Source: JAUXIQ01 sp030620925 [NCBI: Nitrospinota bacterium] (GTDB lineage: Bacteria > JAUXIQ01). From it: a DNA stretch of 6,935 bases. The number at the start of each line of letters is the position of its first letter. Position 1 is the first letter of the stretch. This document shows, one piece after another, positions 547 to 5,817 of this stretch. Location: assembly GCA_030620925.1 (NCBI GenBank), contig JAUXIQ010000101.1, forward strand, positions 1-6,935, written 5' to 3'. Position numbers and translations under genes: made by a program. The notes under the pieces were generated by a model. The model saw only the letters and a list, made by a program, of their open reading frames with translations, was not told the DNA's origin and searched no databases.

Positions 547-594
547 GGCTAATGGTAGTTGTGTTTTGTCTGGAAACGTGCCGGCGGAGGAAAG

Positions 595-3500
595 ATGGGA
601 CAGGATTTCGTGCATCTGCACTGCCACAGCAACTATTCGCTGTTAGAAGGTGCAAACAAGATACAGGCGCTGCTGGACGCCGCCGCGGAAGCGGGTATGG
701 AAGCGTTAGCCGTCACTGATACCAATGCCCTCTACGGCGCTGTTGAATTCCACAAAGCCGCCCGTGAGCGGGGGATAAAACCCATCTTCGGCGCGGAGGT
801 GGACGACCCCGAAACGGGTCGTAAAGCGGTGCTCCTGGCCAGGGATCGGAAAGGATATTCCGCACTCTGCCGGGTCATCACCGCCCGCCGGCTCGACGAA
901 AACTTCTCCCTGGAAGATGCACTGGCGGATGAGAGAGCGGGCCTGTTCATCCTGAGCGCGGAGCCAGAGCTTCTGCGCACTCTCATGGATAAACGGGGCA
1001 AAGAGGGGCTCCGCGTGGAGCTGTCCGCTTGCTCCCCGGGCGGAATGAGGGAGCTGGCCCGTTTCGCAAATGAGAACGGCCTCCCGGCGGCGGTGACCAA
1101 CGATGTCCATTTCGCCCGCGGGGAAGGCTTCCGAATCCACAAGGTGCTGGCCGCCATCCGGGAGAACGCCACCATACACGGCGTCAATGCCGACAAACTG
1201 TGCAGCCCGGAATCCTGGCTCAAACCGCCTGACTTCATGGCGCGGATCGCCGGTGAATATCCCGAAGCCCTGGCGGAGACGGCGCGGATAGCCGAAGCGT
1301 GCAGCGTAGAGCTGGAGCTGGGCGTCAACAGGTTCCCCGCCTACCCGCTGCCGCCGGGGGAGACACCCTTCTCTTACCTGTGGAAAGTCTGTTTCCGGGG
1401 CCTGAGCGAGCGCTACCGGCCCATCACGCCGGAAGCAGTGCGCCGATTGGAGATGGAGCTTGATACCATCCGGAAGTTGGGCTACGCCGAGTATTTCCTG
1501 GTGGTATGGGATATCGTGGAGAAAGCCAAAGAGCTGGGCATCCCCACCGTGGGCCGCGGCTCGGCGGCTAACAGCATCGTCTCCTACGTCCTGGGCGCGA
1601 CGCACGTGGACCCCTTGGAACACGACCTTTATTTCGAGCGTTTCCTGAACCCGGAACGGGTGAGCCCCCCGGATATAGACCTGGATTTCTGCTGGCGGCG
1701 GCGGGACGAGATACTGGAATACGTCTACGAGCGTTACGGCGAGGACAGGGTGGCCATGATAGCCACCATCAACAGGTTCTCCGCCCGCTCGGCGGTGAGG
1801 GATGTCGCCAGGGCCATGGGGATGCCCCAATCCGAGGTGACCGCCTTCACCCGCCGGTTACCACACGTGGCGGTCTCCGCCATCGAGAAAGCAGTGGAGA
1901 CACTGCCAGAATCCCGCGACCTGCCCCTGCACAGGGAGCCTTATAAGACCATACTGGAGATCGCTGCCGCTATGGACCGCTACCCACGCCACCTGGGCGT
2001 GCACACCGGCGGCATGATCATTACCCCCGGCCCGCTCACCGATTACGTCCCCCTCCAGCGGGCGGCCAAAGGGCTGGTGGTTACCCAGTGCGATATGTAC
2101 GCCGCCGAGGACATGGGTCTCATCAAAATAGACCTGCTGGGCCAGCGCTCCCTCTCCGTCATCGCCGACACCCTGATCGACATAAAAGAAAAGGGGGTGG
2201 AGCCGGAGATGGCCCACCACCGCCTCATAAGCGACCCCGATACGCTGCGCCTCATGCGGAAGGGAAAGAGCATGGGCTGTTTCTACATCGAGTCGCCGGG
2301 TATGCGCAGCCTCATGATCAAGCTCAGGGTGGAGGATTTCCCCACGCTGGTAGCGGCAAGCTCTGTCATCCGGCCCGGCCCCGCCGACAGCGGCATGATG
2401 CGCCGTTTCATCGACCGCCACAACGGCCGTGAGGAGATCGTCTATCCGCATCCGACCATGCGTTTCCTGGAGGAGACGCACGGAGTGATGATCTACCAGG
2501 AGGACGTCATGCGCGTGGTACGGGAGGTGGCGGGCATGAGCCTGAGTGAGGCGGACTCCATACGGCGGGCCATGAGCTTCAAGGGTTCGCCGGAAAAAGT
2601 GCTGGCGCTGAAGAAGCGGTTCATGGAAGGGGCGGGCGGAAAGGGCGTGGAGGAAGAAACGGCCGAAGAGATATGGCGGCAGGTAAAGAGCTTCGCCGGC
2701 TACGCCTTCTGCAAGGCCCACAGCGCCTCTTACGCCCAGGTCTCTTTCGAGGCCGCATACCTGAAGGCGCATCACCCGGCGGAGTTCATGGCCGCGGTGC
2801 TATCCAACGGGGGCGGGTTCTACCCGGCGTTCGCTTACGTGGAGGAGGCGCGGCGCATGGGGCTCGCCATACTGCCGTCGGACGTGAACCGCAGCGAGCG
2901 CCGCTACATCGCCGAAGGGGAAGGCATACGCCTGGGTCTCATGTCGGTGCGAGACCTCACCCGGAAGGCCGTCGATTCCCTGCTGGAGGCTCGAAAGGAA
3001 GGCCGTTTCGTCTCGCCCACCGATTTCTGCCGCCGGGTGGACATCACCCTGAAGGAGGCGCAGAACCTGGTCCTCTGCGGCGCATTGGACTGCTTTGAAT
3101 TCACCCGCCCCGAGCTGATGTGGAAACTGGAGCTGTTCTGGTCCGATAATGGTCATGGCGAAAAAAGTTTGGGAAGGGGGGCCGGGGGAGAACCCTTTTT
3201 AAAGGGTTTCCCCCGGAAAGGGATCCGGGGAGAACTTTTTTTAATGAGTGCTCTCAAGGAGAAACCTTCCGCCATAGTGCCCCGTGTGCCCGACTATTCG
3301 TGGGAGAAGAAGCTGGCCCTGGAGCGGGAGATACTCGGTTTCGAGGTCTCCGTTCATCCCATGACTCTATACCGGGACGCCCTGAAGGATGAGGGACTCA
3401 TATCTGCCGGGGATATACCCAAACACGCGGGGAAGAGGGTGCGCGTGGCGGGGACCATGGTCACCAACCGGCGGGTGCGTCTCAAGGGGCGGGAGGAATA

Positions 3501-3711
3501 TATGAAGTTCGTCACCCTCCACGACGAGACGGATATCTTCGAGGCGACGCTTTTTCCCGCCGCCTACCAGAAATACGGCCACCTGCTGGTCACCCGCGGG
3601 CCTTACATCATCACCGGCCTGGTGGAGGAGGATTACGGCTACTGCACGATTACCGTGAACCCCGGAGAGCGGGGAGTGGAGCTTATAGGCCCCGATGCGC
3701 CCCCGCCCTGA
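595..3711 (+). CDS. dnaE: DnaE-type DNA polymerase III alpha subunit, short DnaE2-like form
   Basis: C-family DNA polymerase, 1038 aa from the ATG at 595, chosen because GGAGG (586-590) lies four bases before it. The order is an N-terminal PHP domain (HLHCHS near residue 7, AVTDT at 40-43, GAE to 68, TNDVH to 172), the polymerase core, an HhH region (about 800-840) and a C-terminal OB fold (about 945-1025). The catalytic aspartates are visible: D362 and D364 in PDIDLDF, and D513 in IKIDLLG. The protein stops after the OB fold and so lacks the C-terminal tau-binding domain of replicative DnaE (about 1160 aa in E. coli). RSAVRDV after the catalytic motif and GFYPAFAYVEEARRMG resemble DnaE2, the error-prone translesion class. 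No imuA or imuB partner is in view. The PHP motif usually reading TDH has Thr at 43, so proofreading activity is doubtful. Residues 856-883 are encoded by an inserted palindromic repeat. A replicative role in an organism with short DnaE remains possible. Confidence 0.93.
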   Translation: MGQDFVHLHCHSNYSLLEGANKIQALLDAAAEAGMEALAVTDTNALYGAVEFHKAARERGIKPIFGAEVDDPETGRKAVLLARDRKGYSALCRVITARRLDENFSLEDALADERAGLFILSAEPELLRTLMDKRGKEGLRVELSACSPGGMRELARFANENGLPAAVTNDVHFARGEGFRIHKVLAAIRENATIHGVNADKLCSPESWLKPPDFMARIAGEYPEALAETARIAEACSVELELGVNRFPAYPLPPGETPFSYLWKVCFRGLSERYRPITPEAVRRLEMELDTIRKLGYAEYFLVVWDIVEKAKELGIPTVGRGSAANSIVSYVLGATHVDPLEHDLYFERFLNPERVSPPDIDLDFCWRRRDEILEYVYERYGEDRVAMIATINRFSARSAVRDVARAMGMPQSEVTAFTRRLPHVAVSAIEKAVETLPESRDLPLHREPYKTILEIAAAMDRYPRHLGVHTGGMIITPGPLTDYVPLQRAAKGLVVTQCDMYAAEDMGLIKIDLLGQRSLSVIADTLIDIKEKGVEPEMAHHRLISDPDTLRLMRKGKSMGCFYIESPGMRSLMIKLRVEDFPTLVAASSVIRPGPADSGMMRRFIDRHNGREEIVYPHPTMRFLEETHGVMIYQEDVMRVVREVAGMSLSEADSIRRAMSFKGSPEKVLALKKRFMEGAGGKGVEEETAEEIWRQVKSFAGYAFCKAHSASYAQVSFEAAYLKAHHPAEFMAAVLSNGGGFYPAFAYVEEARRMGLAILPSDVNRSERRYIAEGEGIRLGLMSVRDLTRKAVDSLLEARKEGRFVSPTDFCRRVDITLKEAQNLVLCGALDCFEFTRPELMWKLELFWSDNGHGEKSLGRGAGGEPFLKGFPRKGIRGELFLMSALKEKPSAIVPRVPDYSWEKKLALEREILGFEVSVHPMTLYRDALKDEGLISAGDIPKHAGKRVRVAGTMVTNRRVRLKGREEYMKFVTLHDETDIFEATLFPAAYQKYGHLLVTRGPYIITGLVEEDYGYCTITVNPGERGVELIGPDAPPP
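3160..3243 (+). repeat. Palindromic repeat inserted in frame within dnaE
   Basis: This block shares its layout with the hairpin upstream of dnaE: AAAAAAGTTT, then a GGAAG-G-rich run, then GGGGG-GAACC and its mirror GGTT-CCCCC. A strong palindrome spans 3182-3216 (CCGGGGGAGAACCC against GGGTTTCCCCCGG), and a second partial unit follows (TCCGGGGAGAAC, 3224-3235). The outer ends AAAAAAGTT (3161-3169) and AACTTTTTT (3233-3241) are inverted. The block stays in the dnaE frame without a stop and encodes a Gly/Arg/Lys-rich, low-complexity stretch between the HhH region and the OB-fold part, where DnaE proteins tolerate length variation. In-frame palindromic insertions are known in Rickettsia (RPE elements). 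I infer the same type of event here. Confidence 0.75.
3206..3242 (+). terminator. Intrinsic-terminator-shaped hairpin inside the dnaE coding region
   Basis: CCCCGGA (3211-3217) pairs perfectly with TCCGGGG (3224-3230) around AAGGGA. Below one C-A mismatch, GTTT (3206-3209) pairs with GAAC (3232-3235) with one G-U. Seven T residues follow at once (3236-3242). This is the textbook form of a rho-independent terminator on the sense strand, yet it lies about 470 bases before the dnaE stop codon. It shares its left arm with the larger palindrome 3182-3216, so only one of the two can form at a time. Translating ribosomes probably suppress it. Function is not shown. Confidence 0.45.
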
Positions 3712-3757: not shown

Positions 3758-3784
3758 TAGGGCGGGTTTCAAACCCGCCCCTAC
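3758..3784 (-). repeat. 27-bp palindromic repeat, copy 1
   Basis: GGGCGGGTTT (3760-3769) and AAACCCGCCC (3771-3780) form perfect ten-base arms around one C. The 27 bases are the exact reverse complement of 4104-4130. This is a REP-like dispersed palindrome placed in tandem with the palindrome at 3735-3755. Confidence 0.8.
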
Positions 3785-3791
3785 GCAGCAT

Positions 3792-3848
3792 CCTGTCATT
3801 CTGAGTCCCGCGGTTAGCGGGACGAAGAATCTCGCCTGCCCTGGCAAA
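3792..3848 (+). repeat. Dispersed repeat, copy 2 (inverted relative to copy 1 upstream of dnaE)
   Basis: It begins CCTGTCATTCTGA and ends GAAGAATCTCGCCTGCCC then TGGCAAA, matching the minus strand of 205-271 at both ends. The middle forms the hairpin GTCCCGC-GGTTA-GCGGGAC (3805-3823), which differs from the middle of copy 1. The pair therefore brackets dnaE in opposite orientations. Confidence 0.7.
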
Positions 3849-3872
3849 CCCGCTTTCTTTTGCGCTTTCAAA

Positions 3873-4041: not shown

Positions 4042-4103
4042 TGAATACAATAAATTGATCGCGTTCCCGCGTGCCGGGGGATGCCGCTCCTACCGGATCT
4101 AGC

Positions 4104-4131
4104 GTAGGGGCGGGTTTGAAACCCGCCCTAC
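4104..4131 (+). repeat. 27-bp palindromic repeat, copy 2
   Basis: AAACCCGCCC mirrors GGGCGGGTTT around a central G, and the flanking GTAG and CTAC extend the symmetry. It is the exact reverse complement of 3758-3784 over 27 bases. It ends about 140 bases before the promoter of the MarR gene. Confidence 0.8.
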
Positions 4132-4360: not shown

Positions 4361-4819
4361 ATGGGTAAAGTCGAAGACCATGCGGATAGACTCCAGAAAA
4401 CGTTAAAGCATTTCATCCGTAGCCACCAGTTTCGAGACCGCAACGAGATGAGCCCCTTCGGAGTTACTGTTACCCAGTGTTACGCCCTTGACGCTCTGGG
4501 GGACAGCGGCAGCCTGACCATGAGCGAGCTGGCGGAGAAGATGTACCTCACCACTCCAACCATGACCGGCGTGGTGGAGGAACTGGTGAAGAAAGGGTTA
4601 ACGGAAAGAAAGTTCGACCAGCGGGACAGGCGGTTGATCCGTGTGGCCCTGACCCCCAAAGGGCTGGAAGTCTACGACCAGATCAGGGGTACGCTGCTGA
4701 ACAGATACAAGGATATTCTCAGGAGACTCAAACTTTCCGGTAGGGACGTGGACAAGGTCATCAGCGTGCTCAATGTGCTGACCGCTGATCCCGGGGAAAG
4801 TTGCGCCGAGTGTAAATAA
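4361..4819 (+). CDS. MarR-family transcriptional regulator with C-terminal Cys-x-x-Cys
   Basis: Protein of 152 aa, normal MarR length. AAGGGGG about 10 bases before the ATG serves as ribosome binding site. The winged helix-turn-helix runs from about residue 34 to 100: LTMSELAEKM, recognition helix TTPTMTGVVEELVKKG (64-79), then the wing around DQRDRRLIRVALTPKG (86-101). The DxRDRR pattern is typical of MarR wings. Flanking helices (about 8-25 and 104-142) would make the dimer interface. Cysteines are C40 in the dimerisation/ligand region and C148/C151 in a CAEC tail. Such thiols in MarR proteins can sense oxidants, electrophiles or soft metals, but the ligand is not identifiable from sequence. 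The next gene starts 56 bases downstream with no clear terminator between, so both are probably co-transcribed and this protein probably controls the permease. Confidence 0.9.
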   Translation: MGKVEDHADRLQKTLKHFIRSHQFRDRNEMSPFGVTVTQCYALDALGDSGSLTMSELAEKMYLTTPTMTGVVEELVKKGLTERKFDQRDRRLIRVALTPKGLEVYDQIRGTLLNRYKDILRRLKLSGRDVDKVISVLNVLTADPGESCAECK

Positions 4820-4875
4820 CGCCGCACACAGGGAAGTGGACTTTTTACATACGCCTTTCAGAAGGAGATTAGAAA

Positions 4876-5817
4876 ATGTATGGTGAGTTGTGGATCATAG
4901 CCAAGACGGCCGGTCATATACTGGCCGAATTGTGGTGGTTCGTGGTGTTGGCCATAGTCATCGCCTCGATAATGTCCGCGCTCAAGCTTGATAAGAAGGT
5001 GTCCCTCTACTTTCATCGGGCCAAAGGGTGGGCTATTTTTGGAGCACTGCTTCTGGGTCTGGTCAGCCCCCTGTGAGCCATAGGGGTCCTCCCCGCGGTA
5101 GCGGCCATGCTGGCTGCGGGGGCGCCCATGGCACCCGTGATGGTGTTTCTGATTTCATCGCCGCTCATGAGCCCCAGCGCCTTTTTCATAACCCTGGGCG
5201 GTTTGGGATTAAGTATCGCCCTTTGGAAGCTGGTCTCCGCTGTTATCCTGGGCCTGGCTGCGGGTTGGATGACGGACCGGTTATCCAGACGCGGATATTT
5301 TGGTAATTCCATTCTTCGACTGGAAACCGCCCCGCCTGAGCAGAACCCGCCAACATCATGCTCCGCCTCAGGAAACGAAGTGCAGACCGAAAGCGCGGGA
5401 AGAGTAACCGGCGAGGATATAAAAGCAACGCTCCGCCTCACCTGGAAGTTCAGTGTTTTCATCGGCAAGTTCATCCTCATTGCGGTGGTAGCCCAGGCGG
5501 TGGTGATGCGTTTCGTCCCCCAGGATTGGGTGGTGACCGCCGTGGGCACCAAGAACGCATACGGAGTGCTCTACTCCACCATGATCGGCATTCCCACCTA
5601 TATAAGCAGCATCAGCGCCGTCCCGCTGCTCAGTGGGCTTATGGACCTGGGGATGGACAAGGGCGCTGTGCTTGCGTTCATCATAGCAGGCCCGGTTATG
5701 TCCGTGCCCTCCATACTGGCGGTGATGGCCCTGTTCAGGCGTCGGGCCCTCTACGTCTACATGATGGTGGGATTCATAGGAGCCATCCTTTTTGGATATA
5801 CCTACCGCCTCTTCTGA
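4876..5817 (+). CDS. COG0701/ArsP_1 (YraQ-like) permease with in-frame TGA, candidate selenoprotein
   Basis: Read through one TGA at codon 67, this gives a 313-aa integral membrane protein. AAGGAG eight bases before the ATG is a strong ribosome binding site. Hydrophobic segments fall at about 16-36, 50-66, 69-100 and 104-130, then a polar loop (about 135-180) and a second hydrophobic half (about 185-313). The two halves carry related motifs: SPL-TGA-AIGVLPAVAAML with FLISSPLMSPSAF, and GIPTYISSISAVPLLSGLM with FIIAGPVMSV. This is the internal repeat of the ArsP_1 permease family (PF03773), whose members include organoarsenical exporters. In the family the first motif usually reads PFCSCG or PLCSCG, so the TGA stands at the first Cys. 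The frame is clean for 246 codons after it. The only ordinary Cys is C162 in the loop. Selenocysteine is the favoured reading; a fresh nonsense mutation or a sequencing error is the alternative. The substrate is unknown; arsenicals or other thiol-reactive compounds are an inference. Confidence 0.8.
5076..5115 (+). promoter_or_regulatory. Candidate bacterial SECIS element after the in-frame TGA
   Basis: CCGC (5093-5096) pairs perfectly with GCGG (5101-5104) around the loop GGUA, whose first G is the 21st base after the TGA (5074-5076). AGCCA (5076-5080) can pair with TGGCT (5111-5115) as a lower stem. Bacterial SECIS elements are read by SelB and need a short apical stem with a G at the start of the loop, roughly 16-37 bases after the UGA; E. 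coli fdhF has GGUCU at a similar distance. A competing GGGG-UCCU-CCCC hairpin (5083-5094) overlaps it. A four-base stem in GC-rich DNA can arise by chance, so this alone is weak evidence. Confidence 0.45.

Follow-up and report, generated by a model that had tools for sequence, protein, structure and literature searches.

A putative selenocysteine codon at the conserved motif cysteine of an ArsP_1-type permease

The window, a stretch of DNA of 6,935 nucleotides, is contig C54 of a 2.5 Mb genome bin (445 contigs, 89.47% complete, 3.55% contamination) and carries a gene for an ArsP_1-type permease that is interrupted by a TGA codon. The question raised by this locus is whether the TGA is a lesion, an error, a true stop or a codon for selenocysteine (Sec). 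When the sequence was re-read, the gene structure proposed in the first-pass annotation was confirmed: the frame opens with an ATG behind a strong ribosome binding site, contains a single TGA at codon 67, and ends at position 5817 (Table 1). Apart from this TGA and the terminal TGA at 5815-5817, there is no stop in frame. Ordinary ORF calling yields two pieces in place of this gene, a stub of 66 residues and a shortened permease.

Table 1. Features of the window, with positions counted from its first nucleotide.
Feature	Position	Strand	Basis
DNA polymerase III alpha-type (dnaE-type) gene	559-3711 as open frame	+	HHH and OB-fold matches
MarR-family regulator gene	4361-4819	+	PF12802, 1.6e-14; directly upstream of the permease gene
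Shine-Dalgarno sequence AAGGAG	4862-4867	+	Sequence; 8-nt spacer to ATG at 4876
ArsP_1-type permease gene	4876-5817	+	313 codons, codon 67 read as Sec; PF03773, 6.4e-43
In-frame TGA, codon 67, putative Sec	5074-5076	+	Aligned column is Cys in 41/41 nearest rows
ATA (Ile69)	5080-5082	+	Second Cys of CxC here in 41/41 nearest rows
Candidate bacterial SECIS hairpin	5090-5122	+	14 bp, one bulged G, loop GCCA at 5104-5107
GGDEF gene, start only	from about 6092	+	Pfam; response-regulator match below the Pfam cut-off

The PF03773 (ArsP_1) profile matched the permease with 147.4 bits against a cut-off of 32.3. Since the match spans residues 11-310 (profile positions 8-292 of 294), homology crosses the TGA, and similarity to relatives continues for 246 codons past it, to the C-terminus. 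The G+C content at the three codon positions is alike on both sides (0.53/0.38/0.68 before the TGA and 0.57/0.47/0.71 after it). A global reassignment of TGA, which the first-pass annotation had judged unlikely, was rejected, because both the dnaE-type gene and the permease gene terminate in TGA.

Several repeats were observed elsewhere in the window. A G-rich repeat at 3161-3249 lies in frame within the dnaE-type gene, between the HHH and OB-fold matches, where it would be translated (about GEKSLGRGAGGEPFLKGFPRKGIRGELFL); it resembles the intergenic stretch 413-449 (73% over 37 nt), and the arrangement gives the impression of a mobile repeat inserted into coding sequence. The intergenic space is full of dispersed inverted repeats (3758-3796 / 4092-4130 and 202-229 / 3824-3851). 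An 18-base piece from the region of the latter pair matched, among 144 loci, the window's own copies only. An Rfam search of the window gave two matches, both far below the gathering scores of their families.

To place the TGA within the family, a tree of 98 rows was used. The window protein grouped with 30 rows (support 98/86), and this group was joined by 11 sister rows (100/97); these 41 nearest rows stand for 39 distinct proteins, L092/L059 and L096/L072 being duplicates. Column 67 is Cys in every row of these two nearest supported clades and corresponds to the first Cys of the CxC-G motif, the place that had been proposed for the TGA. Over the wider set of 96 readable rows (L082, which is out of frame at that place, was left out of the count), the column holds 89 Cys, 3 Pro, 3 Ser and 1 Gly. 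The second motif Cys, likewise invariant in the 41 nearest rows and present in 78 of the 96 readable wider rows, is Ile69 in the window protein, whose motif reads TGA-Ala-Ile-Gly (U-A-I-G) and so departs from the common CxC-G. CxC-G is frequent in PF03773 but outside Pfam's definition, and because the motif varies within the family, membership in ArsP_1 does not depend on the second Cys. The seven rows with another residue at column 67 fall within a separate 15-row set, and six of them are from Latescibacterota. These seven related permeases (L055-L057, L065, L073, L076 and L113) carry Pro, Ser or Gly in place of the first motif Cys and Phe or Tyr in place of the second, and a version of the motif free of both Cys residues therefore exists. 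A further relative, from Anaerocolumna (L082, 5729-6822), is spread over two frames, so that this permease is either broken or misassembled.

Conservation beyond the motif was assessed in the same 41 rows. Forty-one positions are conserved in at least 85% of them; 34 of these positions lie after codon 67, and 29 of the 34 are kept in the window protein. It departs from the conserved residue at positions 69 (Cys in 41 rows), 185 (Phe in 40), 241 (Leu in 37), 269 (Leu in 36) and 275 (Thr in 38). The first-pass annotation placed the motif correctly but passed over the loss of the second motif Cys. Identity with the nearest relatives amounts to 35-38% along their length (42-46% over shorter pieces), and the end branch of the window protein is long (1.24). 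We conclude that the window permease is conserved as a whole and carries some unusual substitutions at otherwise firm positions, among which Ile69 could reflect altered or relaxed function.

The first-pass annotation had named selA, selB, selD and tRNA-Sec as the genes to look for in the source genome, and all of them were found in the bin. The selA and selB genes (611 and 415.5 bits, respectively) adjoin each other on contig C407. A tRNA-Sec on C411 scored 78.3 bits and was called by ARAGORN as tRNA-SeC with anticodon tca, while a second place above the tRNA-Sec cut-off, on C113, was discarded, being tRNA-Trp by ARAGORN. Contigs C134 and C51 hold one selD gene apiece (L089 and L090; 398 and 382.8 bits). 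Both genes contain a TGA in frame, flanked as in Gly-Gly-Gly-TGA-Ala-Cys-Lys and Gly-Ala-Gly-TGA-Ala-Cys-Lys; the presence of two selD genes in one bin means either that the gene is truly duplicated or that the bin is mixed. Given selA, selB, tRNA-Sec and the TGA-bearing selD genes, the bin has the Sec pathway and appears to decode TGA as Sec at other places. The Sec machinery and the permease gene are on different contigs of this one bin. The G+C content of the machinery contigs is 0.506-0.570 (0.566 in the window) and their tetranucleotide correlation with the window is 0.675-0.863, a composition that fits a single genome without proving it, as correlations of up to 0.84 also occur with loci from other genomes.

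The region downstream of the TGA was compared with the bacterial SECIS model given in PMC13188914, a stem-loop 16-37 nt after the TGA. The permease hairpin, whose loop GCCA lies 27 nt past the TGA, conforms to this model; a smaller hairpin that would compete with it, CCGC-GGTA-GCGG at 5093-5104, places the loop 20 nt past the TGA. The loops of the selD hairpins are 20 and 21 nt past their TGA codons. As background, 1086 TGA triplets from both strands of six pieces of the same genome and 600 synonymous shuffles of the permease gene were used. The model was satisfied by 409 of the 1086 triplets (by 12 at -22.9 kcal/mol or lower), by the terminator TGA of the dnaE-type gene, and by 94.5% of the shuffles; 11.5% of all 600 shuffles did so at an energy as low. 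In a fold scan against synonymous shuffles, the stretch after codon 64, which holds both the TGA and the hairpin, had the lowest z of 295 stretches (-3.0), and the 54 nt after codon 67 ranked 26th of 295 by z and 3rd of 295 by energy. Because so many genomic triplets and nearly all shuffles fit the model, a fit to it was rejected as proof of Sec insertion; the hairpin agrees with a Sec codon and adds little weight.

Relatives with Sec at the same column were sought in sets of 192 and 386 genomes (overlapping, and mostly of different families), in three small phyla (12, 4 and 2 genomes), and in 30 loci whose genomes are named, with column 67 covered in 29; the phylum of the window was represented by its own genome alone. 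No other Sec form of the window permease was found among the matches listed from these genomes and loci. The in-frame stops among these matches were a C-terminal TGA in G057 and one broken place in G138, in addition to the window's own. A search of the 386 genomes with NF033936, the family of the SO_0444 Cu/Zn efflux transporter, gave a match at 1e-50 in 98 genomes, with TGA among the matches listed only in G093 and G183. The TGA-bearing hits were discarded, as the TGA is at the C-terminus in G057 and G093, and G183 has none inside the permease frame. Matches to the window permease were found in 944 plasmid records, all below 60% identity; viral contigs contained no relative of it. Comparison with PF03773 members, suggested in the first-pass annotation, gave homologues that carry Cys at the TGA column, and none in the subfamily that carries U among the matches listed.

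Because the TGA lies on a conserved Cys column and the bin holds Sec machinery, UGA codon 67 of the ArsP_1-type permease is very probably decoded as selenocysteine. A different origin of the same codon would be a recent nonsense mutation that turned a Cys codon into TGA and inactivated the gene, too recently for decay to have followed. The permease is known from a single copy, with no Sec-form relative among the matches listed, and the changes at the second motif Cys and at three other firm residues, together with the branch of 1.24, could hint at relaxed constraint. Yet the TGA is the sole defect in the frame, it falls on a column that is Cys in 41/41 rows, and it does so in a genome with Sec machinery, while 29 of the 34 conserved later positions are kept. 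The permease gene contains 26 sense codons one base away from TGA, and 87 single substitutions in it would yield some stop; on these counts, the chance that random nonsense strikes codon 67 ranges from approximately 1 in 27, when TGA alone is counted, to 1 in 88. The first-pass judgement that chance nonsense at this codon is the less likely explanation is borne out, and we consider such a mutation unlikely.

An error of sequencing or assembly, the real codon being TGC, TGT or TGG, would leave the same trace, and the source bin is fragmented into 445 contigs. A single-base error would, however, have had to strike precisely this codon in a genome that carries Sec machinery, and the permease, MarR and dnaE-type frames contain no other interrupting stop, which makes an error highly improbable. 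That UGA acts as a stop, giving a 66-residue peptide and a separate protein from the ATG at 5107, where a 236-aa frame opens, can practically be dismissed, as no clear Shine-Dalgarno sequence lies upstream of 5107 and such a protein would lose the motif and first helices that relatives keep in one chain.

The reading of codon 67 as Sec has a precedent within ArsP_1. The SO_0444 Cu/Zn efflux transporter (NF033936, WP_014809615.1) is listed in a 2026 review (PMC13188914) as a selenoprotein with the motif UxC, annotated in GenBank. The first-pass statement that no selenoprotein had been described in the permease family thus does not hold for ArsP_1 as a whole, NF033936 being listed there; it retains force in that the window protein is outside this curated family, with 112.3 bits against a cut-off of 300. 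The Sec form of SO_0444 belongs to PF03773, like the window permease, and the listed motif UxC would put its Sec at the first Cys, the matching place; it differs in having a second Cys, which U-A-I-G lacks. A separate SO_0444 protein is encoded in the same genome as the window (C415), with 365.5 (part) and 383.8 bits, a CSCG motif and no in-frame stop. Since the window permease is outside the curated SO_0444 family, it represents a separate case at what seems to be the same place.

SaoE (NF040736) is, as the window permease, an ArsP_1-like efflux protein, and is grouped with the Sao proteins by name; the window permease is also below its cut-off (94.5 bits against 325). Among the selenoproteins given in PMC13188914 are SaoB, SaoC, SaoP, SaoT and SaoX, whereas SaoE is nowhere named in it; no Sao gene was recognised in the window. 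The closest kin are uncurated ArsP_1 clades, including L054 from a Clostridiaceae MAG (35% identity, 3e-59), L105 (38%), the Nitrospinota loci L058 and L062 and, further, L106; unlike the window permease, these clades have Cys at both motif places in 41/41 rows. In the literature searched, no paper was found on a Sec form of ArsP_1/COG0701 outside SO_0444, and for SO_0444 as a selenoprotein PMC13188914 was the only one; the words permease, transporter and ArsP do not occur in the deep-Sep paper (PMC12013277). The finding is best read as one putative Sec-bearing member of another, diverged ArsP_1 subfamily, in which the second motif Cys is absent.

The MarR gene upstream of the permease gene was considered as part of the same unit, and the two are likely co-transcribed as an operon. 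Among the 24 loci inspected, 8 have a MarR gene upstream of the related permease: L054, L058, L062 and L081 were found by Pfam, and L060, L067, L083 and L143, as well as L054 and L081 again, by tblastn with the window MarR. Since tblastn missed L058 and L062, some MarR genes have perhaps been overlooked. In the window permease's own 30-row clade, tblastn revealed MarR in 0 of 9 loci (L064, L066, L071, L072, L075 and L137-L140). An upstream MarR gene is thus shared with the close relatives L054, L058 and L062, and the link is present in the sister set, L083 and L081, but is not general. The window MarR product ends in ESCAECK. The MarR proteins of L054, L058, L062 and L081 have, with the start codons chosen, a Cys-Cys pair near the N-terminus, and two also have one at the C-terminus. 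The regulator may sense something thiol-reactive.

An AlphaFold2 model of the window permease (27 aligned sequences; mean pLDDT 79.9, pTM 0.78) placed residue 67 at a predicted helix break (64-67), before a helix at 68-80, and a similar break was predicted in the second half of the protein, at 239-244. A sequence search of solved structures gave no credible relative (best E 0.46), and a fold search with the model gave nothing at E <= 0.001; a TRAP transporter was rejected as a fold relative, the match being too weak (E 0.22, TM 0.45).

In the proposed mechanism, the SelA/SelB/SelD/tRNA-Sec system would decode UGA 67 to give a full-length ArsP_1 permease, in which Sec would take the place of the first Cys of CxC-G at the predicted helix break. 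From the family and from Sec chemistry, the selenolate could bind the substrate, a soft metal or metalloid, during efflux. Because the second Cys is absent (Ile69), Sec would do so alone, as one strong ligand, and not as a member of a thiol pair. According to PMC9312934, most selenoproteins are thought to have redox functions. We tentatively propose that the window permease belongs to a second, separate ArsP_1 subfamily, in which a lone Sec, gained independently of SO_0444, is a transport ligand and not a redox catalyst; within the membrane domain, its selenolate would bind and pass on a soft metal, a metalloid or a selenium compound. If this is true, it suggests that ArsP_1 permeases acquired Sec on more than one occasion, and a membrane-integral permease whose motif holds Sec and lacks the partner Cys would provide a clean test of Sec as a transport metal ligand.
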